DNA from: a virus
Direction: 5' to 3' (one strand)
IMG/VR virus record: IMGVR_UViG_3300008448_000060
Coordinates: 1 to 64,000 of that record
DNA: 64,000 nt
In this document: positions 3,701-52,634 of the stretch, piece by piece
How the letters are laid out: every line of letters starts with the position of its first letter
How positions within the stretch are numbered: the stretch's first letter is position 1
Made by a program: the position numbers and the translations under genes
The notes under the pieces: generated by a model
Told to the model about the DNA's origin: nothing
Databases searched by the model: none
Seen by the model: only the letters and a program-made list of their open reading frames with translations

Positions 3701-6700
3701 GTTTAAATTTATTAGAAAAAGAAACATCAACATTTAGTATTAAATCAGCTACAAGTGGTTTAGATAGATTTAAAAATGGATTTTTAGTAGATCAATTTAC
3801 AGGTCATGGTGTAGGTAATGTTCAACATCCTGATTATCGTATTGCAGTTGATAGTGCAAAAAGAGAATTAAGACCAATGCACTTTACAGATGCTTTAGAT
3901 ATTATTGAAAACTTAGATTCTGGTCCGCAAAGAGCGAGTAGAGATTATCAAAGAACAAATGATTTAATTACATTACCATATACTGAATCATCATTTATTT
4001 TTAATCCAAATGCTTCAAGAACTATTGATGTAAATCCATATAAAATTGGTGCATTTAAAGGCGAGATTGAATTAACACCTGAAGGAGATTTCTGGAAAGA
4101 AACTGATAGAAGACCAGATCTGAATGTGAATGATGATAATGGATATGATGCTATAAGATTTTTAGGTGAAAGATTAGGTGTTACAGGATCTCAGTGGAAC
4201 GAGTGGTCTTATAACTGGACTGGATCAACTGATCAAGTAAGAACATATGAAACTTGGAACGCAGGATTTGAAGAAACAATTACAACTCAAACAGGAACGC
4301 AATCACGTGAAGGAATTCAAACATCATTATCAGGAAGTGTAAATCAAATAAATTATGGCGATCGTGTTGTAGATATTTCTTATATACCTTTTATTCGTCC
4401 AAGAACTGTATCAGTTATTGCTAGAAATTTAAAACCAGATACTAAATTTTATGCATTTTTTGATGGTATAAGAGTAGACTCTTCTTATGTTAAACCAGCA
4501 GATGTATTTCGTTTAACAAAAGTTGCTGGTGCTGCAGATTTAAACTTTAATGTTCAACAAACTATTCAAACAGTTCTTTCTGATGATTTAGCAAGAACAG
4601 ATTCTCAAGGTGTATTTCAACCAGCATTTTATTTCGGTGATATACTAAAAAATTCAGAACATACACCAGTTGTAATCCAAACAGTTAATCATATAACAAA
4701 TGCACTTGGTGAAACATCATTTACATTAACAGTATCTTCTGCTACAGGAATTTCTCCTGGACATCACGTTCATTTATATAACTTTGATGCAGTAAGAGCA
4801 AATCCTGAAGTTGTTTCAACTATAATTGAAAATAATTTTACTTCAACTATTACTACTTTTGGAAACAATCATTCAAAACAATTAAATTTAAAAATATTTA
4901 AAGTTATAGCAGTAGCTGGAACTACAATAACATTAGCAAAAATTGATGGTTCATTAATTGAACCATTTGATTCTTATACAACTGCAGTATATCCAGCAGG
5001 AGATGGTGCTAGATTACAAAGATTACAAGCAAGTGGTATTGCTAATTTTGAAGGACCACAAACATCGGCAACTATTCGAAATATTTCAATAATTAATATT
5101 AAAAATGGATTTGCTATTGGTGATGTATTAACTGGAGAAGTTGATATAGGATCTGGTGCTAAGAATCGTGTAACAATAACTGCAATTAATAATGGAACAG
5201 ATTCTTCAATCGCTCCTACAATGAAATCAGTAGGAGATACAATTCGTACTGACTCTAATGGTTCAGTTTGCTGTGTATTTAATATACCAGAAAATGTGTT
5301 TAGAACAGGAGAAAGAACATTTAAATTAATCGATAATATTTCAAATAATGATGCTGATTTTGATTCGAAAGGATCTGCTTCTTATATTGCATCTGGTACA
5401 ACTTTAAGTAAAGAAAGAACTATTGTAAACTCAAGAGATGTAAGATATGTACAAGATAGAATATATGAAGAAATTCCAGCAAGACGTACAACTACAACTA
5501 CTCGATTACTTTACACAATTCAACGTGGTCATGATCCTGTAGCACAAACATTTGTCGTGTCATCAAAAGGTGGGGCTTTCGTTTCCTCAGTAGATTTATA
5601 TTTTGAAGAAGCAGGAGCAAGACCTATTATTGTTGAATTAAGAGTGACTAATAATGGTGTACCATCTTCACGTGTAGTTCCATTTACAACTGTGACAAAA
5701 TCTCCTTCTGAGATTAATACATCAACAAATGGTTCAGCTGCAACTAACTTTAAATTTTTAGCACCTGTATATTTACAAGATAATGAAACTTATGCTATCG
5801 TAGTAAGAACAGACGAGCCAGGAGCAAAAATATTTATTTCTGAATTAGGAGAATCTGATTTAATTACTACAAACATTATTACTCAACAACCATTAACTGG
5901 ATCTTTATATCTATCACAAAATTCACAAGAATATAAAATTAATCCTTTATTGGATATGAAATTTAAATTATATTCTTGTACATTTGATACAAGTGTTGTT
6001 GCTGATGTTGAATTAAAAGCTAATCCACCAATTACATATACATTAGATGAAAATCCTTTTGAATTTACTCCATCAACACCACATGTAAGAGTAAGAGCAA
6101 GAAATCATGGATTTAATTTCAATGATGTTGCAATTATATCAGGTGTTGCTCCAGGACTTTATGGTGCAACTTCACCAAATGGTGCACCACATACATTATT
6201 AAATGGATCTCATTTAGTATTAGCTGAAGGATTAACAAAAGATTCTTTCATGATACAATTACAAACTACTGATGCAAATGGTGTAAATTTATTAACAGGA
6301 TCAACTGCTAACTTTGTAAAATCAAATGTTGGTGGAACAAATGTTTTATGTTCTCGTCAATTAAATGTAGATGCCATTTATTTAAAAACTAACGATTTAA
6401 TTTTTACAGACACAAGTATAAATTATTTTGTTTCTGCTTCAGATGCTGCTGGTACACCTACTGATTTCTTACCAATAGTTGCGAATGAAAACTATTATTT
6501 TACGAATAGAAAAGTAATTAAATCTTATGAGAACCAAGTATTACTTTCAACGTCTCCTTTATTAAAGAGACCAAGTTTAAAAATACGTGCTCAATTAAGA
6601 TCAAATAATCCAAACATATCACCTGTGATTGATTTACAAAAAGCATCAATTTATGCTATTTCAAATTCAATAGATAATAAAACTGGTTCTAATTTAAATG

Positions 6701-7935
6701 TTTCTGGTGTTGATAATCGAAATATATTAGTTAATAACACAATTGTAGATTCAGATACTTTTATTACAGGAACAGGAACAATAACTACAAGCACAGCATC
6801 TACTACAGTGACTGGTGTTGGCACATCATTTACAACTGAAGCAAGAGTTGGGGATACACTTCGAGTAGGAGATACTGCAATTGGTGTAATTGATACAATT
6901 ACAAACGCAACTACAATCGTATTAACTGCAAATGCTCTTGCAACAAATGCAGTTGGTGTTGCTTACAAAATAGTTGCAAGATCAGTAGTTCAATTATCTC
7001 ATAATGCTTCAGGAAATGGTCAGTTAGTGACTTGGATTGATGCTGCTGATAATTTATTAGCTAATACGCAAATTGGAGCAGAATTAATTTTAACAGGAAT
7101 TTACGCAAATAAATTAGACGGAACATATGAAATAGCAAATGTAGCTGAGGAATTTAGTTTAGATAGATTTGCAGGTTCAGCAGATGGAAATAAAGTGACA
7201 ATTACACTAGATAGACCATTTGTAAATATTCCTACAACAAACACTATGTTCCTTGATGTAGTAAATGACTTTTTAGAATTTAATTTAGATGGTGTTCAAA
7301 CTTCTCTTACAAATAGCACTTCTATTACATCAACTGCAGATAATACATCAAAAATTTCAGCAGGTGATATTATTGTATCAACAACGCTTTATGATGTAGT
7401 GACACCAGATGGTGGAACAGCACAAAGATTAGAGAAAAAAGTAGTTGGAACAGTGACTGCTGTTGCTGCTGGGTCAATTACACTTTCAGCAAATGCTACA
7501 GTAGCAATTAGTGGTGTTGTTATGGCTGTAAGAAAACCATTAGCTTCTTGGAAAATACAACAGTACGATGCTTTTGTTGATGACTATGCTCCAACTGGAT
7601 CTACAAATTTAGCTAACTATATAACTCGTACATTAGCATTAACAAATCCAGCAAATAATATTAAAGTTATATTTGATGCAAATATACCAAACGATACAGA
7701 TTTAACTCTTTATTATCGTGCTTGGAACGATGAAGTAAATTTAAATACGTTAAAATTTAATTCAATAACTTTACCTATTACATCAAAAGACTCATTAGAT
7801 GTGTTTAGAGAAAGAATTGCTACATTAGAGAATATTGCTGCATTTAAAAACTTACAGGTTAAGTTAGTATTTAAATCAACAAATCCTGTTTATGTACCAA
7901 AAGTTAAAAATTTAAGAGTAATTGCTTATAGTTAA
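736..7935 (+). CDS. Giant virion structural protein with N-terminal DUF4815-type domain (baseplate/tail fibre region)
   Basis: A 2399-residue protein, the largest in the window. The N-terminus (about residues 5-60: FNVTPYFDDFNESKQFLRVL, then RPGYAVQARELTQLQ and ILQNQISRFGDHVFKNGSMV) is the hallmark of DUF4815 proteins, which are encoded next to baseplate genes in marine T4-like phages. The rest is Thr/Ser/Asn-rich beta structure without cysteine clusters or membrane segments. Two short modules, near residues 540-620 and 2010-2080, share a GTGTTITTS...V.GVGT.F pattern typical of extended fibres. It probably lies at the baseplate periphery or forms a long fibre; which one cannot be told from sequence. 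An ATG follows a weakly AG-rich leader. Confidence 0.7.
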   Translation: MSINFNVTPYFDDFNESKQFLRVLFRPGYAVQARELTQLQTILQNQISRFGDHVFKNGSMVVPGEVNFDNQVHFAKLEDLFGNTNVTSYLTQFRDKIITGQTSGVKAVVIDTSECGCMVPGDSNVATLYFKMTDTASDGQTKRFIPGEIITATAADNTTANNYRLTANQVSDISVTVKTFGDTGQAATVYTNSPTTDVLGYGTVVEVKEGIYYIDGYFVKNPELHLYVGRFTNTVTARVGFEVIEEVITPEQDASLNDNAQGSNNFAAPGAHRYKVSVNLKRLALNTTDTIKFIELLRLKDGQLLHKVDKTSYAEIEKTFARRTFDESGSYEVNKFNLTSREHLNTGTNGGVFPITPATPVAGITYGSNDKVAIAVDPGKAYIEGYEVESVSTRFLSINKARPINNVENGHISRLDDQPIGTTVGNHILVSSVQGLPPISTFGIIYLWAGIDNHITPPTIGTTTNINKTGLIGTARIKSFQLHSSSYSSPTFKLGLFDLKLESGYNFERDVKWITDVGATNPIGFFAQVDQTTTPVSLIGTVSGTSGAATLTGVGTRFQDEFKVGDAVVLTTSNTFVGFVDAIASPTSLTIDRNFAANYTGVVYARGSSPIYNPEFQSLVFNTGIENTKTLRGLDSATLQDTVLSSTQTVRRTITATSTAGGDWIHTLTESTEFFLTDTDLSNYTLFDNVAKTVVNLTSASISFDSEANRKTITITGLTGARSYTLLTSIFQTGVSAREKIKTKTSYTQTITTALAVTGKSILLDHADVCEIVSVFMTPGNYNSYSSAGAINITDRFTLDSGQRLSHYQKGALVLRDGVGIPTGAIQVVYRYFAYSGTGNYFSVDSYSSIPYEDIPEFKITNPDGTTTTIPLHDVIDYRPVISGLNTFTPNIPKIGTDFNTSIANYLPRWDKIILDSVGNFSILTGVPAFEPKQPEDPKEGLILGTVFLPAYTKKASDVQIFKRDNRRYTMRDIGFLERRLSNLEYYTSLNLLEKETSTFSIKSATSGLDRFKNGFLVDQFTGHGVGNVQHPDYRIAVDSAKRELRPMHFTDALDIIENLDSGPQRASRDYQRTNDLITLPYTESSFIFNPNASRTIDVNPYKIGAFKGEIELTPEGDFWKETDRRPDLNVNDDNGYDAIRFLGERLGVTGSQWNEWSYNWTGSTDQVRTYETWNAGFEETITTQTGTQSREGIQTSLSGSVNQINYGDRVVDISYIPFIRPRTVSVIARNLKPDTKFYAFFDGIRVDSSYVKPADVFRLTKVAGAADLNFNVQQTIQTVLSDDLARTDSQGVFQPAFYFGDILKNSEHTPVVIQTVNHITNALGETSFTLTVSSATGISPGHHVHLYNFDAVRANPEVVSTIIENNFTSTITTFGNNHSKQLNLKIFKVIAVAGTTITLAKIDGSLIEPFDSYTTAVYPAGDGARLQRLQASGIANFEGPQTSATIRNISIINIKNGFAIGDVLTGEVDIGSGAKNRVTITAINNGTDSSIAPTMKSVGDTIRTDSNGSVCCVFNIPENVFRTGERTFKLIDNISNNDADFDSKGSASYIASGTTLSKERTIVNSRDVRYVQDRIYEEIPARRTTTTTRLLYTIQRGHDPVAQTFVVSSKGGAFVSSVDLYFEEAGARPIIVELRVTNNGVPSSRVVPFTTVTKSPSEINTSTNGSAATNFKFLAPVYLQDNETYAIVVRTDEPGAKIFISELGESDLITTNIITQQPLTGSLYLSQNSQEYKINPLLDMKFKLYSCTFDTSVVADVELKANPPITYTLDENPFEFTPSTPHVRVRARNHGFNFNDVAIISGVAPGLYGATSPNGAPHTLLNGSHLVLAEGLTKDSFMIQLQTTDANGVNLLTGSTANFVKSNVGGTNVLCSRQLNVDAIYLKTNDLIFTDTSINYFVSASDAAGTPTDFLPIVANENYYFTNRKVIKSYENQVLLSTSPLLKRPSLKIRAQLRSNNPNISPVIDLQKASIYAISNSIDNKTGSNLNVSGVDNRNILVNNTIVDSDTFITGTGTITTSTASTTVTGVGTSFTTEARVGDTLRVGDTAIGVIDTITNATTIVLTANALATNAVGVAYKIVARSVVQLSHNASGNGQLVTWIDAADNLLANTQIGAELILTGIYANKLDGTYEIANVAEEFSLDRFAGSADGNKVTITLDRPFVNIPTTNTMFLDVVNDFLEFNLDGVQTSLTNSTSITSTADNTSKISAGDIIVSTTLYDVVTPDGGTAQRLEKKVVGTVTAVAAGSITLSANATVAISGVVMAVRKPLASWKIQQYDAFVDDYAPTGSTNLANYITRTLALTNPANNIKVIFDANIPNDTDLTLYYRAWNDEVNLNTLKFNSITLPITSKDSLDVFRERIATLENIAAFKNLQVKLVFKSTNPVYVPKVKNLRVIAYS

Positions 7936-7938
7936 TAT

Positions 7939-8154
7939 ATGAAATTTGTTAAAGTGAAAGATCATCCTAATTTAAAAAGGGATATTCATACACAAGCAGT
8001 AATTAACACATCTAATTCTGAATACGAAGAATATAAAAAAATACAAGAGAATGCAAGTCTTCGTTCAAGAATAATAGAGAATGAAATAAATAGTCTTAAG
8101 AATGATATATCAGAAATTAAGAATATTTTAAAACAAATAGTACAAGGAAAATAA
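7939..8154 (+). CDS. Small conserved phage protein with C-terminal coiled coil
   Basis: A 71-residue protein starting three bases after the giant structural gene ends, so probably translationally coupled. The N-terminus (MKFVKVKDHPNLKRDIHTQA) resembles a small protein found at this place in cyanophage genomes. Residues 40-70 form a heptad-like amphipathic helix (ENEINSLKNDISEIKNILKQ), suggesting oligomerisation. The function is unknown; a tail assembly partner or chaperone of the neighbouring fibre is possible but unproven. Confidence 0.6.
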   Translation: MKFVKVKDHPNLKRDIHTQAVINTSNSEYEEYKKIQENASLRSRIIENEINSLKNDISEIKNILKQIVQGK

Positions 8155-45292: not shown

Positions 45293-45604
45293 ATGAGAAA
45301 AAAAAGAAAAGAAAAAGTAGAAATAAACCCTTTCACAAATAAACCAAGCAAAAAACCAATTCGTGAAGGAGTATCAACACAAACAAATGATGTCGACAGA
45401 AAAGATGAATCTAAAACTGTTCTTAGAGATAAACAACATCATTTACATTTTAAGTTAAAATTAATTGAAAACTGGATATATGAAAAAAAGCATAGTAAGT
45501 TTTTATCTGATTCAGAACCAAATCTAAAAGACTTAGAATTAAAACAACATAATATGAAGCATGAATATGATCGTGTGTCTAAATTATTAAAGGAAAGCAA
45601 GTAA
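45293..45604 (+). CDS. Hypothetical basic helical protein, 103 aa
   Basis: Lys/Arg-rich N-terminus (KKRKEKVEINPFTNKPSKKP) followed by a helical hairpin (HHLHFKLKLIENWIYEKKHS and the QHNMKHEYDRVSKLLKESK tail). The NPFTNKPSKKPI stretch is proline-rich and likely extended. Starts three bases after gene 46 and overlaps the deformylase start (TAATG). Unknown function; the basic charge would allow nucleic acid binding. Confidence 0.5.
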   Translation: MRKKRKEKVEINPFTNKPSKKPIREGVSTQTNDVDRKDESKTVLRDKQHHLHFKLKLIENWIYEKKHSKFLSDSEPNLKDLELKQHNMKHEYDRVSKLLKESK

Positions 45605-46392
45605 TGACTGATGTAAAAGAAGTTGTCTGGGATTCAGTGGATGAAAATGGTAATCCTATAAACCCAAGACTAGCTACAGCTGAAGAAGTAGAAGCAAAAA
45701 AGAAATCAAAATCACTTCCTATTATAGAAGAATCTTTTGATAAACGTATTTTAAAACCAGAACCAACTGTAGTACAAGTTGAAAAGCTAACAAGTAGTTT
45801 AGATGGAAAAGAAATTATAACACCAGTAAGAACTACTGATGGTTTAATTCCATGGAACGATCCACGTTTAAAAACACCACCAAAAGAATGGGACTTTAAA
45901 AAACCAGTAGAAGAAGCAGCACAATTAGGATTATTATTGATTAAAGTATCACAAAAATTAAATGGTGCTGGTCTTTCAGCTAATCAAATAGGAATAGATG
46001 CAAAAGTGTTTGCAATTACAGTTATTGAAAACTATCAATATGCTGTTTTTAATCCAGAAATATTAGAATCTTCAGAAGAAGTTGAATTAATGGAAGAAGG
46101 ATGTTTATCTCGTCCAGGATTATGGCTAAAAATATCAAGACCAAAAAAAATTAAAGTTAAATATTTTACATTCAAAGGCGAAGAAGTTCGTACCGAATTA
46201 GATGGGTTTCATTCAAGAGTATTTCAGCATGAATATGACCATATGTTAGGAATAGACTTTACTCAGAGAGTAGGTAAATTAAAATTAGATATGGCTTTAA
46301 AGAAATTAGATAAACAATTAAGAAAAGCAGCAACTACTCAACAACTAGAATATGAAGCGAAATTAAGACCTAAATTAAGAATTCCTGATTAA
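45604..46392 (+). CDS. def: Peptide deformylase with N-terminal extension
   Basis: Removes the formyl group from new proteins. The three catalytic motifs are intact: GAGLSANQIG (residues 121-130), EEGCLS (164-169, metal-binding Cys167) and HEYDH (209-213, two metal-binding histidines and the catalytic Glu210). Deformylases are typically shorter, about 130-190 residues; this has about 95 extra N-terminal residues with a low-complexity start and a GLIPWNDPRLKTPPKEWDFK linker. Marine T4-like phages often carry deformylase, generally suggested to sustain turnover of host or phage proteins. It is the last gene of the 46/47 group. Confidence 0.92.
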   Translation: MTDVKEVVWDSVDENGNPINPRLATAEEVEAKKKSKSLPIIEESFDKRILKPEPTVVQVEKLTSSLDGKEIITPVRTTDGLIPWNDPRLKTPPKEWDFKKPVEEAAQLGLLLIKVSQKLNGAGLSANQIGIDAKVFAITVIENYQYAVFNPEILESSEEVELMEEGCLSRPGLWLKISRPKKIKVKYFTFKGEEVRTELDGFHSRVFQHEYDHMLGIDFTQRVGKLKLDMALKKLDKQLRKAATTQQLEYEAKLRPKLRIPD

Positions 46393-46776: not shown

Positions 46777-46820
46777 GGCGAAATTAAGGCGACTTTAATA
46801 TAAGTCACTGATTTATATAC

Positions 46821-46834
46821 CTTTTTTATTTTCT
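46821..46834 (+). promoter_or_regulatory. T-rich box shared with the CobS-like promoter
   Basis: CTTTTTTATTTTCT, identical 14 of 14 bases to 49593-49606, and eight bases upstream of the -35 box at 46843. Looks like an UP-type element or activator site specific to the VWA and CobS-like gene pair. Confidence 0.5.
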
Positions 46835-46842
46835 CCTAATTA

Positions 46843-46871
46843 TATACTTTTAGATCATTTTATAGTAGAAT
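46843..46871 (+). promoter_or_regulatory. Promoter of the VWA/metalloprotease gene
   Basis: TATACT, 17 bases, TAGAAT at 46866-46871. Predicted start about 46878, seven bases before the ATG at 46885, too short for a Shine-Dalgarno. Confidence 0.7.
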
Positions 46872-46884
46872 ATATGTATATATT

Positions 46885-49092
46885 ATGAATAAAAAAGATT
46901 TATTAGCGAAACTACTTTCTACTGAAAATATAACTGTTTTAAGACAGCCTGTTGCGACTGCATCTTTTAACGTTGAAACTAGAGTTCTTACTCTTCCTGT
47001 CTGGAAGAACCTTTCCGAAAATATCGAAAATATGTTGATTGCCCATGAAGTAGGGCATGCTCTTTACACTCCATTTAGAAAATCAGAAACAGAAGAATTT
47101 AATAATAATAAACTATTACATTCTTGGGCGAATGTTATTGAGGATGTTAGGATTGAAAAGAAAATACAAAACGAATATCCAGGATTGAAAAAAGACTTTG
47201 TTTCAGCTTATAAAGAATTAGTTGATAGAAATTTTTTTGGTGTTAAAGGTAGAGATTTAGTGAAAGAACAATTTATTAATAAAGCAAATTTATTTTATAA
47301 AGCTGGTTATAATTGTGGTGTTAAATTTACAGCAGAAGAATATGGTTATATAAAAGAAATTGATAATTGCGAAACGTTTGATGATGTTATGAAGTTAGCG
47401 AAAAAACTTACTGCTTATTCTGTTGCTAAAAAAGAATTAGAAAAACAAGCTTTAGAAAAACTTGCTGCACTGTACTTACAAAATGGTGATGAGAATGAAC
47501 AAGGTGAACAACTTAAAGATTCTTTAAAAGGTCTTCTTATGGATGAACTGGACGCAGATGGAAATAAAATAGGTGGTTCTAAATCTAATCCTGAAACAAC
47601 TGTTCTTGAAACTGATAATACTACTGAAGAAACAATTCAAGATAAGTTTGATAATATGTTATCAAAACATACAAGTAATAATGAATTTGTTATTGTTGAC
47701 TATAATCCAAAATTTGTAGGATTTGATCCTTATGTACCATATAAAAAATATATGACAGATGTAGATGCTTGGTTAGCAATTAGAAAAACTAAGGAAGATT
47801 TAGAATTAGCGAATGCTAAAAAAGCAGGTCACGGAGGATGGGAAACTACTGAAGATAAAATAAGATTAGCGAGCATTGAATTCAATTCATATCTACAAGA
47901 AACCAAAAAAGAAGTAAATTACTTGCTTAAAGAATTTGAAATGAGAAAATCAGCAAATCAATATTATAAAACAAAAGAACATAAAACTGGTGTAATTGAT
48001 ATTAGGAAATTAGCATCTTATAAAATTAAAGAAGAAATATTTAAAACTATCCAATCATTACCAAAGGGAAAAAATCATGGAATGGTTATGTTAATGGATT
48101 GGTCTGGTAGTATGAGTGGCATATTAAAAGACGTTATTAAACAAGTTTATTTGATGACTAGTTTTTGCAAAATAGCAAATATACCATTTACTGTTCTTGC
48201 TTTCACTAATGGTATATCTGACTCTAATCCTGAGAAAGCATTATGTGATGTTGAAAGAACAAAACAATTTGGTGAAAGATATATACCCTATGATGATAAA
48301 CTATCGCCTGAAGAAAATCAAGCTAGAAAGTCAATTACAAATCAATTAGATGTTGAGATGTTTAGAGTTGTTGAAATTTTATCTAATAAAATGAACAAAG
48401 AAGAATATAATAAAATGGGTGCTTTATTATTCTCTGAAGTATATAAAAATGTTTCTAATTATAAATTAGCATCAACACCTTTAAATGAATCTTTATATTA
48501 TATGATTGATTTCTTACCAAGATTTAAAAAATTAAATAATGTTCAAAAACTTTCTTTTATAGTATTAACAGATGGCGAAGGACATAGCATCCAGCCAAGA
48601 CGTTTTGAATCTTACAGTTATTCTATAAAAAAACATTTATATCTTAGGAAAGATAATAAAGAATATGAATTTAAAACATATATGCAAACTGGTACTTTAA
48701 TTAAAATAATAAAAGATCAAGATCCAAATACAACTTGTCTTGCGTTTTCTTTAATAAGAAACAATAGAAGACATATAAGCAATACATTATCTCATTTAAA
48801 CAGTTATACAAATGATGGTCAGTTTGGAAATGCTGACGAATCTACAGTAATTAAAATAGCAAAAGATTTTAAAGAATTAGGTGCTTCTGCATTAAAACAA
48901 GTTAATTCTTATGATGAATATTATTTAATCCCAATAGAAAATATTAAACCTGAAGCTTTAAATATTGTTAATGATTTGACTTCTACAAAAGAAAAAACAG
49001 CAAATCAAATAGCAAAATCATTTACTAAGCTTTTAAAACAAAATAGAAATAGTAGATTCTTATTAACTTCTTTTGCAAAGCAGGTAGCATAA
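46885..49092 (+). CDS. Zinc-metalloprotease-like/VWA-domain protein (CobT-like partner), 735 aa
   Basis: Two domains. Residues about 30-100 contain HEVGH (54-58) and NVIEDVRIEKK (83-93), the metal-binding histidine pair and a likely third ligand of a zinc peptidase. Residues about 395-560 are a von Willebrand A domain with the metal-site motif DWSGS (405-409) and later LTDGEGHSIQPRR. The middle (about 185-260) is acidic and variable, like CobT. Such VWA proteins work with MoxR/CobS-type AAA+ ATPases, and one is encoded 580 bases downstream. In cyanophage genomes similar pairs are labelled cobalt-chelatase subunits, but cobalt insertion is doubtful because there is no CobN. Substrate unknown. 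Confidence 0.75.
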   Translation: MNKKDLLAKLLSTENITVLRQPVATASFNVETRVLTLPVWKNLSENIENMLIAHEVGHALYTPFRKSETEEFNNNKLLHSWANVIEDVRIEKKIQNEYPGLKKDFVSAYKELVDRNFFGVKGRDLVKEQFINKANLFYKAGYNCGVKFTAEEYGYIKEIDNCETFDDVMKLAKKLTAYSVAKKELEKQALEKLAALYLQNGDENEQGEQLKDSLKGLLMDELDADGNKIGGSKSNPETTVLETDNTTEETIQDKFDNMLSKHTSNNEFVIVDYNPKFVGFDPYVPYKKYMTDVDAWLAIRKTKEDLELANAKKAGHGGWETTEDKIRLASIEFNSYLQETKKEVNYLLKEFEMRKSANQYYKTKEHKTGVIDIRKLASYKIKEEIFKTIQSLPKGKNHGMVMLMDWSGSMSGILKDVIKQVYLMTSFCKIANIPFTVLAFTNGISDSNPEKALCDVERTKQFGERYIPYDDKLSPEENQARKSITNQLDVEMFRVVEILSNKMNKEEYNKMGALLFSEVYKNVSNYKLASTPLNESLYYMIDFLPRFKKLNNVQKLSFIVLTDGEGHSIQPRRFESYSYSIKKHLYLRKDNKEYEFKTYMQTGTLIKIIKDQDPNTTCLAFSLIRNNRRHISNTLSHLNSYTNDGQFGNADESTVIKIAKDFKELGASALKQVNSYDEYYLIPIENIKPEALNIVNDLTSTKEKTANQIAKSFTKLLKQNRNSRFLLTSFAKQVA

Positions 49093-49409
49093 TGGCTGAA
49101 ACAATATCATTAAAAGATAAAATTATAGAGTTAAGATCTAAAATACTTATACATTCTTATATGTATTGGTATAAAGATAATCCTCTTGTGTCTGATACTT
49201 TATTTGATGCTTGGAAAAAACAATTAGTTGAATATCAAGCTGAACATAAACAAAAATTTCCTAATGAGAGAATAGAATTTTTTGAAACTGCATTTATTAA
49301 TTGGGATGGCACTAATTCAAAAAGTCTTCCTTTGTTTGATGAGTGGATTACGAATAGAGTTGAAGTGCTTGACAAATATAAAAATGCGACTCCATATTTT
49401 AATATTTAA
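49092..49409 (+). CDS. Protein resembling the Ia (NMN-binding) domain of NAD-dependent DNA ligase, 105 aa
   Basis: KIIELRSKILIHSYMYWYKD followed by NPLVSDTLFDAWKKQLVEYQ copies the spacing of ligase LigA domain Ia, in which a helix ending HxYYxxDxPxxSDxxYDxL binds the NMN part of NAD. There is no adenylation domain, so it cannot ligate alone. It overlaps the VWA gene stop (TAATG). It could sense or hydrolyse NAD, or be a partner of an unlinked ligase; this is inference. Resemblance is from memory only. Confidence 0.45.
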   Translation: MAETISLKDKIIELRSKILIHSYMYWYKDNPLVSDTLFDAWKKQLVEYQAEHKQKFPNERIEFFETAFINWDGTNSKSLPLFDEWITNRVEVLDKYKNATPYFNI

Positions 49410-49566
49410 ATTTATGATATTACTATCCTTATCTGGTTGTTTTGGTTCTACACTATTTACTTTGGGTGAAATTAAAATAACCACTGGGGATGTAATGACA
49501 AAAATAGTTAAAATTATACCAAAAAACGATGAAAATCTAGAAGACTACGAAAATAAAAAACTATAA
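49384..49566 (+). CDS. Small lipoprotein, 60 aa
   Basis: Starting at the ATG 26 bases inside the preceding gene gives MRLHILIFKFMILLSLSGCF: a basic N-terminus, hydrophobic core and the lipobox LSGC (Cys19). The mature part is about 40 charged residues. A start at the internal methionine would lack the basic N-terminus. It could be an outer-membrane spanin-type or other envelope protein; not decidable. Confidence 0.5.
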   Translation: MRLHILIFKFMILLSLSGCFGSTLFTLGEIKITTGDVMTKIVKIIPKNDENLEDYENKKL

Positions 49567-49592
49567 TATGACTAAACCATTGAAATATATAT

Positions 49593-49606
49593 CTTTTTTA
49601 TTTTCT
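49593..49606 (+). promoter_or_regulatory. T-rich box shared with the VWA-gene promoter
   Basis: Second copy of CTTTTTTATTTTCT, seven bases upstream of the -35 box at 49614. The same motif precedes the promoter at 46843. Confidence 0.5.
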
Positions 49607-49613
49607 GGAAGTA

Positions 49614-49642
49614 TATACTTTTTCAACGAATTATGCTATAAT
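49614..49642 (+). promoter_or_regulatory. Promoter of the CobS-like ATPase gene
   Basis: TATACT, 17 bases, TATAAT at 49637-49642. Predicted start about 49649, which excludes the upstream ATG at 49645 as a start codon. Leader about 26 bases containing AAAAAAGG. Confidence 0.75.
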
Positions 49643-49674
49643 ATATGTATAAACCAACTAAAAAAGGCAAATAT

Positions 49675-50844
49675 ATGATGAATAATGCGAATATAAAAAA
49701 GTTTGTAGAATCTCTACATAAATCTTATTCCAATGATGAGAATAAATTTAATTGGAAACAGATTGTTAAAGTTTTTAAAACTACTAAGTTTGACAACAAA
49801 TCAGAAGTTTATAACTGGGTGAAAGCCCAAAAAACTGGGAGAGGATCTTATATTATTCCTCTTTCAAGTGTTTCTTCTTCAGTGACAAATAATGTTGTTA
49901 AAATTGATACTGTAAAATCTGAATCTTCTAATTTAGATGTTAAGTCTTTAGTTCCAATTAGAGATAGTAATTATGTCCCATTCGGAAATTATAAAGACTT
50001 AGAAACTATCATAACTTCTAGACAATTTTATCCAACATTTGTGACTGGACCGACTGGTAATGGTAAATCTACTTCGATTGAACAAATTTGTGCAAAACAT
50101 AAAATTTCTTTAATTAGAGTTAATTTAAACAGCTTAACAGACGAAGATCAATTAATCGGTACTAAAACACTTGTCGATGGTAATATACAAATCGTAGAGG
50201 GACCAGTTGTTATAGCAATGAGATTAGGAATCCCATTATTGCTTGATGAGATCGATGCTGGTGGTGCTAATACTCTATTATGTTTACAACCAATTCTAGA
50301 GGGTAAGCCATTCTACTTTAAATTAAAGAACGAGATTATCGTTCCAAAAAATGGTTTTAATATATTCGCCACAGCGAATACCAAAGGCAAAGGTTCAGAA
50401 GATGGAAGATATATTGGTACGAATGTTTTGAATGAAGCATTTCTAGAGAGATTTGCTGTGACATTCCAACAAGAATATCCAACACCATCGATTGAATTAA
50501 AGATTGTTAAAAATCTGATGGACTCTTATAAATGTAAGAATGATAAATTCGCTCAGACTCTAGTTAAGTGGGCTGATGTGATTAGAAAAACAAATGAATC
50601 AGGTGGTGTTGATGAAACAATTACTACAAGAAGATTGGTTCATATTGTAAGAGCATATTCAGTATTTAAAGATATTGATAAATCTATACAGTTATGTACA
50701 AATAGATTCGATGAAGCAACAAGACTTGCTTTTATTGATTTGTTTGACAAAGTATCAAATAACAGAGAAACTTCGGCTCCGAAACCATCAGAGTCTGAAG
50801 TTGCGAGTGCTGTAGTTAATCAACAACAAACAGTGAGTGCTTAA
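49675..50844 (+). CDS. cobS: CobS/MoxR-like AAA+ ATPase, 389 aa
   Basis: Walker A GPTGNGKST at 125-133, Walker B LLLDEIDA at 188-195, and a sensor/arginine region after NIFATANTKG and FLERFAVTFQQEYP, the layout of CobS and MoxR ATPases. The label CobS follows marine phage usage, but its natural partner here is probably the VWA protein. Residues about 25-65 (FNWKQIVKVFKTTKFDNKSE, NWVKAQ, GRGSYIIP) resemble the core of the two small proteins encoded downstream. The start chosen is the first ATG after the predicted transcription start. Confidence 0.85.
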   Translation: MMNNANIKKFVESLHKSYSNDENKFNWKQIVKVFKTTKFDNKSEVYNWVKAQKTGRGSYIIPLSSVSSSVTNNVVKIDTVKSESSNLDVKSLVPIRDSNYVPFGNYKDLETIITSRQFYPTFVTGPTGNGKSTSIEQICAKHKISLIRVNLNSLTDEDQLIGTKTLVDGNIQIVEGPVVIAMRLGIPLLLDEIDAGGANTLLCLQPILEGKPFYFKLKNEIIVPKNGFNIFATANTKGKGSEDGRYIGTNVLNEAFLERFAVTFQQEYPTPSIELKIVKNLMDSYKCKNDKFAQTLVKWADVIRKTNESGGVDETITTRRLVHIVRAYSVFKDIDKSIQLCTNRFDEATRLAFIDLFDKVSNNRETSAPKPSESEVASAVVNQQQTVSA

Positions 50845-51209
50845 TGCTAACTTGGAATTCACTTACTAAATCACAAAAACGTTGGGTAGAAAACGTTTCT
50901 AAAATTCTACCCGATTGTGTAAGTAAAGGGTATATTACAGCAACACAATGTTATGACTCTTTTAAGCAATTAGAAAAACAAAGAGTTTCAGGTAGTCCAA
51001 AAATTGGATATCCAAATTGGTTGTTTAAACTTAATAAAATTAAAAGAGGAATATACTTATTTCCAGCAGAGGGAGTGACAGTACAAAAAGCATCTCAATC
51101 TTTAAATGGTAAAGCTGAACCAATTGTTATTACTAGTAGAGTATCAGAAGAAGATAAATCATTTTTAAATGATTTAAAAGCTTTTGGTATTGATATAAGA
51201 GTTTCTTAA
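50844..51209 (+). CDS. Small protein paralogous to 51309 and to the CobS-like N-terminus, 121 aa
   Basis: The core KSQKRWVENVSKILPDCVSK, then YPNWLFKLNKIKRGIYLFPA, is matched in the next gene by KAQRKWVDAVITIFPNLEKT and YPNWLFKTNKISPGVYFFPA. The NW...GxYxxP spacing also appears in the N-terminal part of the ATPase just upstream. Overlaps the ATPase stop (TAATG), so it is coexpressed. Likely an adaptor or regulator of that ATPase. Function unknown. Confidence 0.6.
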   Translation: MLTWNSLTKSQKRWVENVSKILPDCVSKGYITATQCYDSFKQLEKQRVSGSPKIGYPNWLFKLNKIKRGIYLFPAEGVTVQKASQSLNGKAEPIVITSRVSEEDKSFLNDLKAFGIDIRVS

Positions 51210-51228
51210 TGGGAGTTTTTATTAAATT

Positions 51229-51278
51229 GTAAAGTGGGAGTCCCATATAAGAAATTATCCTTTTTTCTCCCACTTTAC
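51229..51278 (+). promoter_or_regulatory. 12-bp inverted repeat overlapping a promoter
   Basis: GTAAAGTGGGAG at 51229-51240 and its perfect complement CTCCCACTTTAC at 51267-51278, separated by 26 bases. The right arm contains most of the -35 box TTTACT (51274-51279) of the promoter for the second small paralogue. It looks like an operator; an RNA stem of the upstream transcript is the alternative. Confidence 0.55.
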
Positions 51279-51302
51279 TTACAATAAAATTTATAATATA
51301 AT
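51274..51302 (+). promoter_or_regulatory. Early promoter of the second paralogue (leaderless)
   Basis: TTTACT, 17 bases, TATAAT at 51297-51302. Predicted start 51309 equals the A of the ATG. Confidence 0.8.
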
Positions 51303-51308
51303 ATTGAT

Positions 51309-51656
51309 ATGATAACATACGATAATGCTTCTAAAGCTCAAAGAAAATGGGTTGATGCAGTAATTACAATTTTCCCAAATCTTGAGAAAACTGGAGTAAT
51401 TTCAGCAGCAGAATGTTATTCGGCTCATATGAATTTATTAAAAAATCGTAAAGCAGATTCAGATAAAATTGGATACCCAAATTGGTTGTTTAAAACTAAT
51501 AAAATAAGTCCAGGAGTTTATTTTTTTCCTGCGAAAGGATTAAATCCTGATAATATAGTTAAAACTATTCCAGTGGGAGATTCTAATATAAGAGCAGAAG
51601 TATCAAAAACAGAAGAAGATAAGCAATTTTTTAAAGATGTATTAACTAATGTATAA
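51309..51656 (+). CDS. Small protein paralogous to 50844, 115 aa
   Basis: Second copy of the small protein downstream of the CobS-like ATPase; shares KAQRKWV, IGYPNWLFK and GVYFFPA. The C-terminus ends with EEDKQFFKDVLTNV, parallel to EEDKSFLNDLKAF of the first copy. The gene has its own promoter with the ATG at the predicted transcript start. Unknown function; probably binds the same partner as its paralogue. Confidence 0.6.
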   Translation: MITYDNASKAQRKWVDAVITIFPNLEKTGVISAAECYSAHMNLLKNRKADSDKIGYPNWLFKTNKISPGVYFFPAKGLNPDNIVKTIPVGDSNIRAEVSKTEEDKQFFKDVLTNV

Positions 51657-51930
51657 ATTTAACGAAGATAAACTATTAAAAGAATTTAAACAATATATTG
51701 ACCAAACATATAAAGGTCATTATTCTAAAAAGAAATTTCAATCAACAGAGTTCATCGTTGATTGTGGTCATGGTCTAGGATTTACACTAGGCAATGTTTT
51801 AAAATATGCTCAAAGGTATGGGCATAAAGATGGACAAAATCGTAAAGATCTTTTAAAGATTTTACACTATGCTCTTCTTGCTTTATATATACACGATCAA
51901 GGAGAAAAACTTAATAATGAAAAGGAGTGA
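51649..51930 (+). CDS. DUF3310-like protein, 93 aa
   Basis: GFTLGNVLKYAQRYGHKDGQ followed by NRKDLLKILHYALLALYIHD fits the short conserved region of DUF3310 proteins common in phages (GN.LKY..R.G.K.G...DL.KA..Y). They are sometimes called nucleotide-kinase-like, but this is not established. Overlaps the previous gene by 8 bases. Confidence 0.55.
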   Translation: MYKFNEDKLLKEFKQYIDQTYKGHYSKKKFQSTEFIVDCGHGLGFTLGNVLKYAQRYGHKDGQNRKDLLKILHYALLALYIHDQGEKLNNEKE

Positions 51931-51932
51931 GA

Positions 51933-52634
51933 ATGAAACTAAGTAAAGAAACAATTGCGATTATGAAAAACTTCGCAGGAATTAATGCCAATCTAATGTT
52001 AAAGAATGGTAATAAAATATCAACAATATCGCCAGCAAAAAGTGTAATGGCTGTAGCACAAATTTCAGAGAATTTGCCAATCAATGGTTCTGGAAATTTT
52101 GGCATATACGAATTAAACGATTTTTTATCAGCTTATACATTAATGGAAGATGCAGATTTAACATTTGGTGATAATTTTTGTATGATTTCTAAAGGTCATC
52201 AAAAAATTAAATTCTATTCAGCAGCAAGTGAAATGCTACTTGTTCCATCAAAAGAAAGTTTGCCTGTTTCTAATGATGTATCTTTTAATTTAAAAGCAGC
52301 AGATTTAGATATGATTTCAAAGTCAGCAGCAATTTTAAAAGTAAGCGATATATCAATCGTATCAAAAGATGGTAAAGTAAGTGTTGAAGTTGCTGATAAA
52401 AAAGCACAACAAGCTGCAAAATCAGGACAATCAACAGCTAATGCTTTTAATCTAGATATTGGTACGTCAGATAAAGAGTTTAAAGTAAATATGAAAGTTG
52501 AAAATTTACAAAAAATTGTACTTACAGATTATGTAGTGACAGTTGATAGCAAAAAACTATCTAAGTTTTCAGCAACTAAAGGTTCGCTAGTATATTACAT
52601 CGCAATCGAATCTGATTCTGTAATCGGCAAATAA
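51933..52634 (+). CDS. 45: Sliding clamp gp45
   Basis: Ring clamp for DNA polymerase and coactivator of late transcription with gp55. KLSKETIAIMKNFAGINANL matches the gp45 N-terminus and the body (FGIYELNDFLSAYTLMEDAD, VTVDSKKLSKFSATKGSLVY) follows it; 233 residues (T4: 228). The ATG after AAGGAG is used rather than the in-frame GTG that lies within the ribosome site. Confidence 0.93.
   Translation: MKLSKETIAIMKNFAGINANLMLKNGNKISTISPAKSVMAVAQISENLPINGSGNFGIYELNDFLSAYTLMEDADLTFGDNFCMISKGHQKIKFYSAASEMLLVPSKESLPVSNDVSFNLKAADLDMISKSAAILKVSDISIVSKDGKVSVEVADKKAQQAAKSGQSTANAFNLDIGTSDKEFKVNMKVENLQKIVLTDYVVTVDSKKLSKFSATKGSLVYYIAIESDSVIGK

Follow-up and report, generated by a model that had tools for sequence, protein, structure and literature searches.

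We analysed a 64,000-nt window of phage DNA (positions 1 to 64,000 of the IMG/VR virus record IMGVR_UViG_3300008448_000060, a record of 69.5 kb) and followed up an island of genes that encodes a VWA protein, a MoxR-class AAA+ ATPase and two small satellite proteins. On present evidence, the VWA-ATPase pair is not a cobalt chelatase. The explanation that we prefer, and to which we give roughly even chances, is that the two proteins make up a remodelling machine of the MoxR/VWA kind that includes a zinc-peptidase module and works during the replication/recombination phase. We favour a remodeller bearing a zincin-type motif because the residues of the zinc motif and of the metal ion-dependent adhesion site (MIDAS) are invariant in the family, while all 41 cellular CobT proteins compared lack HExxH. 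We place it in the replication/recombination phase because of its neighbours in 71 of 80 viral loci, in phages that are not T4-like and on a conjugative element.

The core of the island is known. The VWA protein and the ATPase belong to PHROG 459 ('peptidase') and PHROG 249 ('porphyrin biosynthesis', cobS), which are common in T4-like cyanophages, and the architecture has been published. Specifically, a 2021 paper described such a pair, MoxR-vWA with an N-terminal metallopeptidase, in group 2.2 jumbo phages and proposed that it acts in virion assembly (PMC7824862); the comparison of that pair (ASV44728/ASV44729) with ours is by its described architecture, which is the same. The opposite reading, as cobST, has also been published (PMC8651126). 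Beyond these publications, our analysis adds the identity of the satellites, the upstream region common to both genes, the insertion of a ligase-Ia gene, the relatives on conjugative elements, and the comparison between the intact motif and the motif lost in CobT.

Zinc-peptidase motif of the VWA protein

The VWA protein (735 aa; 46885..49092, + strand) contains an N-terminal HExxHxxxT...NxxED domain (residues about 1-120; HEVGH...NVIEDVRIE); its C-terminal part, from about residue 398, is a VWA domain whose MIDAS is complete. The original prediction for this DNA, made without database searches, had named a HEVGH and a DWSGS motif, and both are present, at residues 54-58 (47044..47058, + strand) and 405-409, respectively. 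The reading frames of the pair are not chance, given their full-length matches to phrog_459 (E = 2e-152, VWA-protein residues 4-735) and phrog_249 (E = 8e-102, ATPase residues 37-386) and their invariant motif residues.

H54, E55, H58, N83, E86, D87 and R89, as well as the MIDAS set D405, S407, S409, T531 and D563, are invariant in 17 phages and in 38 members of the family; the 17 phage isolates were found by whole-protein search, not by motif pattern. In a wider set of N-domains, which includes Klebsiella and Rhizobium phages and proteins of integrative and conjugative elements (ICEs), the invariant residues are P38, H54, E55, H58, T62, N83, E86, D87 and G100. The protein has the sequence signature of a zincin, namely HExxH and a third ligand downstream, the putative third ligand being E86 or D87. 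The predicted fusion of a VWA protein to a zincin-like motif is thus borne out at the level of sequence: an intact zincin-type zinc-peptidase motif is present, and the domain that carries it may be an active peptidase.

In the AlphaFold2 model of the VWA protein (mean predicted local distance difference test score, pLDDT, 75.7), HExxH lies inside helix 45-61 and E86/D87 inside helix 76-97, with three short strands ahead of them. A fold search of the PDB with this model retrieved the VWA fold, and the VWA domain of NorD in complex with NorQ is among the best matches. In Pseudoalteromonas phage XG4 (our locus L023), the VWA domain (5890-7089) and the motif domain (7101-8132) are separate open reading frames (ORFs) beside the ATPase, in a record that is marked unverified and in which a sequencing error is possible. 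This separation favours regarding the two domains as two modules. Within the same XG4 region (L023 5890-9427), the ATPase reading frame is in two pieces.

Comparison with cobaltochelatase

The cobalt-chelatase label, which the original prediction had doubted, fits the pair poorly. No CobN homologue (PF02514) was found in the whole 69.5-kb record or in five related viral records (longest 145 kb), which may be incomplete; the same holds for 14 of the 20 genomes that carry the ICE-type relative. The literature on cobalamin in SAR11 gave indirect statements only on the CobN status of Pelagibacter, and these are not used as evidence. The VWA protein has no match to the CobT models PF06213 and PF11775, and 2 of the 38 members touch PF06213, at E values of 0.39 or worse.

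HExxH is present within the first 200 residues in 0/41 alphaproteobacterial CobT proteins, 48/50 ICE-type proteins and 115/118 phage proteins, and the three phage proteins without it are all truncated at the 5' end; the phage and ICE fractions are somewhat favoured, as the viral scan and one filter used HExxH or NxxED patterns, while the isolates from the whole-protein search are unaffected. Alignment with hhalign links the phage family to the ICE family (9e-21) and the ICE family to cellular CobT (5.5e-28), and the phage family to CobT at 4e-7, confined to the NxxED region. These alignments suggest that the VWA protein is distantly related to CobT via the ICE proteins. In the aligned N-domains, HEAAH of the ICE proteins stands opposite CobT residues that include none of the three ligands.

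The ATPase scores 89 bits against the CobS model TIGR01650 (E = 4e-25), for which the curated cut-off is 559. Compared with CobS and CobT of aerobic cobaltochelatase (solved structures 9uka and others), the ATPase core is alike (E = 1e-37) and the CobT N-domain and VWA domain are distantly alike, but the window pair has an additional ATPase N-terminal domain. Membership of the cobaltochelatase family was rejected on the CobN partner, the CobS cut-off, the CobT models and the N-domain, which in CobT is free of HExxH.

Among 76 alphaproteobacterial genomes (from our set G024-G100), some of which are small or incomplete, CobT (PF06213) is present in 55 and CobN in 29. Because 27 of the 55 CobT-bearing genomes are without CobN, cellular CobST may have a role besides cobalt insertion.

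The ATPase and the satellite proteins

The ATPase gene spans 49645..50844 (+ strand). Its start is more likely at 49675 or 49678, because 49645 sits a few bases past a TATAAT box and the proteins of relatives begin at residue 11 or 12. The AAA+ invariants of the family (GxxGxGK, DE, NEAFLERF and TRR, corresponding to Walker A, Walker B, sensor and arginine finger) are all present, and a sequence search of the PDB gives CobS as the nearest match (9ujv, E = 1e-37), followed by CbbQ and NorQ; the large multi-domain score of midasin is the product of several repeats. Together with the MIDAS of its partner, these MoxR-class matches agree with the predicted MoxR/VWA pair. The model of the ATPase (pLDDT 78.8) has CbbQ and NorQ as best fold matches (NorQ template modelling score 0.87 by target).

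Ahead of the AAA+ core, residues about 14-70 of the model run helix-strand-helix-helix-strand-strand, an order that we take to be the winged-helix pattern. The N-terminal domain of the ATPase is thus predicted to be winged-helix-like. Satellite 1 (121 aa; 50844..51209, + strand) and satellite 2 (115 aa; 51309..51656, + strand) are paralogues (E = 4e-25). Alignment of the satellite family with the ATPase N-domains by hhalign gives a probability of 92%, compared with at most 1.2% in 20 column-shuffled controls. When a hidden Markov model of the satellites was run against 15,394 ORFs, the first matches beyond their own family were the ATPase N-termini (8.6e-6). Judged from these comparisons, each satellite is a free-standing copy of the N-terminal domain of the ATPase. 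They have no match in the PDB or among PHROGs. Distant viral loci with a single satellite after the ATPase include L042, L043, L044, L046, L049 and L064, among others.

Shared upstream regions

The regions upstream of the VWA gene (46792..46880, + strand) and of the ATPase gene (49560..49651, + strand) align with each other over ~93 bp, with a local score of 65; none of 300 shuffles scored above 35, and no other gene start above 37. On the + strand of the window, TTTTTTATTTTCT and TATATACTTTT have exact copies solely ahead of these two genes, at 46822 and 46841 for the VWA gene and at 49594 and 49612 for the ATPase gene, where TATAAT lies just before 49645. The motifs are retained in the relatives L004, L009, L010 and L042, and in L042 they are still present upstream of a VWA protein that is 45% identical. 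A generic sigma-70 scan found sites no commoner than in shuffles; for this reason it is the pairwise alignment, and no promoter consensus, that supports the claim of a shared region.

Genomic setting in phages and conjugative elements

In 87 of 92 loci the VWA gene has the ATPase gene downstream of it; in the window the two share a strand, the ATPase being next downstream past the ligase-Ia gene. At least one of gp44, gp45, gp46 and gp47 is found within the fetched flanks of 71/80 viral loci. The pairs of cyanophages and of Pelagibacter phage HTVC008M resemble the window pair in full-length homology, in the order VWA then ATPase and in their gp46-gp45 location. Compared with the cyanophage pair, the VWA protein is ~30% identical, and the ligase-Ia insertion and two satellites of the window are unseen in the cyanophage loci inspected.

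Related pairs are also present beyond T4-like phages. In Klebsiella phage phi12.3, a protein with HEVGH matches both Pfam CobT models, and the pair adjoins DNA polymerase III alpha. The pair of Pseudomonas phage Nican01 adjoins DNA polymerase III alpha as well, with a DNA ligase upstream. In Staphylococcus and Listeria phages (L030 3800-5775, L038 4740-6588), a distant ATPase of this kind has a DUF7192 protein after it, where other loci have the VWA/HExxH protein.

On pR997, presumably an element of the SXT/R391 type, the gene order is ssb-bet-exo-AAA-x-DUF3150-x-VWA-radC, and the VWA protein (548-551 aa) carries HEAAH...NIIEDVRIE. The ORF layout of L166, with ORFs named by Pfam, and of L186 is as in pR997. 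Like the window pair, this module has an HExxH and MIDAS VWA protein, an AAA_5/CbbQ-type ATPase and a recombination setting; unlike it, the ATPase lies upstream of the VWA gene with DUF3150 between, the VWA protein is ~200 aa shorter and no satellite was seen. The DUF3150 protein is constant between the ATPase and VWA genes of the ICE module (L166 3305-4258, L250 7476-8429), and a phage counterpart was not recognised. Relatives of the ICE-type VWA protein are found on 1,230 plasmid records, of which 981 are predicted to be conjugative. Taken together, the shared control DNA, the neighbours and the conjugative-element relatives suggest that the pair has proteins as its targets and works while DNA is being replicated and recombined.

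Layout of the island

The 69.5-kb record, of which the window is part, contains T4-like genes for portal, major head protein, terminase, helicase, gp47 and UvsX, and its DNA polymerase is nearest to cyanophage enzymes (~48% identity). The close relatives are IMG/VR contigs, which from their sample numbers we take to be from freshwater, and the phage is hence styled a freshwater T4-like phage. A megablast search with 20 kb against phages gave no match.

The order of the island is deformylase (45604-46392; Pfam E = 2e-35), two short ORFs, VWA protein, ligase-Ia protein, ATPase, satellite 1, satellite 2, DUF3310 gene (51649-51930) and clamp (51927-52634). The original prediction had placed the island between deformylase and clamp, which holds, and had seen that two satellite proteins exist; its gene list lacked the ligase-Ia and DUF3310 genes, and it did not recognise what the satellites are, nor the shared upstream region or the prior publication.

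The ligase-Ia gene (49092..49409, + strand) encodes a stand-alone NAD-dependent DNA ligase Ia (NAD+/NMN-binding) domain of 105 aa, with matches to PF22745 (E = 9e-17) and phrog_6466 (E = 1.5e-14). A phmmer search of the PDB gave no match, although the Pfam match is clear. The gene occupies the VWA-ATPase junction in the nearest relatives and L042 only, and in P-SSM4 the position is taken by pcyA; because of this, the junction looks like an insertion site. Proteins similar to the ligase-Ia protein occur in 185 phage records, most of which are from phages other than T4-like ones.

The T4 late promoter TATAAATA has one exact match in the window, compared with 14 expected, and was dropped as a marker of late genes. 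The window has 10 copies of the late-type motif CTAAATA on its + strand and one on its - strand; three of these copies lie 15-70 bases before structural-region genes.

Discussion

A model for the pair can be proposed by analogy with NorQ/NorD, whose ATPase and VWA folds are among the best structural matches, although the identity to the window proteins is ~22% for the ATPase and 7-9% for the VWA protein. In the machine that we prefer, a MoxR-class AAA+ hexamer would be partnered by a VWA co-chaperone bearing an intact zincin-type motif, and the VWA domain would dock on the ATPase ring as NorD does on NorQ. The MIDAS would grip a target, ATP hydrolysis would pull or twist it, and the target would then be handed to the peptidase domain and cleaved. 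The winged-helix-like domain of the ATPase may be the recruiting domain, with the satellites as extra adaptors or competitors. The pair would be made from matching promoters, within the replication/recombination programme, and its targets are probably nucleoprotein complexes.

Several points weigh against this explanation. We know of no member with peptidase activity, and conservation of HExxH may reflect a structural or metal-storing role. The zincin fold had no match in the whole-model fold search or the PDB profile search, which gave chance hits only. The loci were collected by the family's own motifs, and their counts include related sequences rather than independent events. The gene neighbourhood suggests a stage, not a target, and the literature search returned no expression timing for the VWA-ATPase pair.

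A virion-assembly chaperone-protease that remodels and trims head or tail proteins is rather unlikely. It is the published proposal for the same architecture, made with reference to a MoxR-vWA system required for an archaeal virus tail (PMC7824862), and in HTVC008M an Hsp20 gene lies between the pair and the clamp. However, the pair lies within a replication/recombination cluster, away from structural genes, and the module is also carried by conjugative elements, which make no virion. The absence of CTAAATA before the pair points the same way, if weakly for so short a motif. Virion maturation, one of the roles that the original prediction had considered, is less well supported than a setting in replication and recombination. 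The literature on virion proteomics and on the ICE module held nothing specific to the pair.

Also unlikely is a metal-binding or structural HExxH domain, in which case the pair would be a chaperone that, like NorQD, does nothing but remodel proteins or insert metallocofactors. NorQD, for which a mechanism is available, and CobST put the same ATPase/VWA pairing to metal insertion (PMC13036017), and the CobT N-domain is homologous yet motif-free, indicating that the domain can work without the motif. Against this, H, E and H together with N, E and D are invariant across phages and ICEs, as a catalytic site predicts. A role in host takeover or anti-defence, in which the machine would remove the defence proteins of the host, is improbable. 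Lytic phages and conjugative elements, which both carry the module, do both enter a hostile cell, but cobS is conserved in the cyanophage core (PMC3037559) and the setting among replication genes is fixed, unlike most anti-defence genes; PADLOC gave one weak match, to IetA (E = 0.02), at the ATP-binding region. Cobaltochelatase subunits that would partner the host's CobN and increase cobalamin during infection are very improbable: despite the published reading (PMC8651126), the nearness of the ATPase to CobS and the distant relation to CobT, the pair falls far under the CobS cut-off and keeps a motif that CobT has lost, and CobN is missing from the phage records, from most ICE-type genomes examined and from about half of the CobT-bearing genomes, some small or incomplete.

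If the pair is a remodelling machine bearing a zincin, it may belong to a wider class found in mobile elements, both T4-like phages and conjugative ones. In such a class, nucleoprotein targets at replication/recombination sites would be fed by a MoxR ring to a VWA-fused zinc peptidase, winged-helix copies would serve as target adaptors, and CobT would be a descendant or sister with a dead peptidase domain. This extension is speculative, and we think it unlikely to hold as a whole. In cyanophages, 'cobS' is commonly described as an auxiliary metabolic gene for vitamin B12. Should the pair be a zincin-bearing remodelling machine, the B12 reading would be wrong in hundreds of annotated genomes, a related machine would sit on many conjugative plasmids, and the CobT N-domain would be a decayed peptidase domain, which is a testable evolutionary claim.

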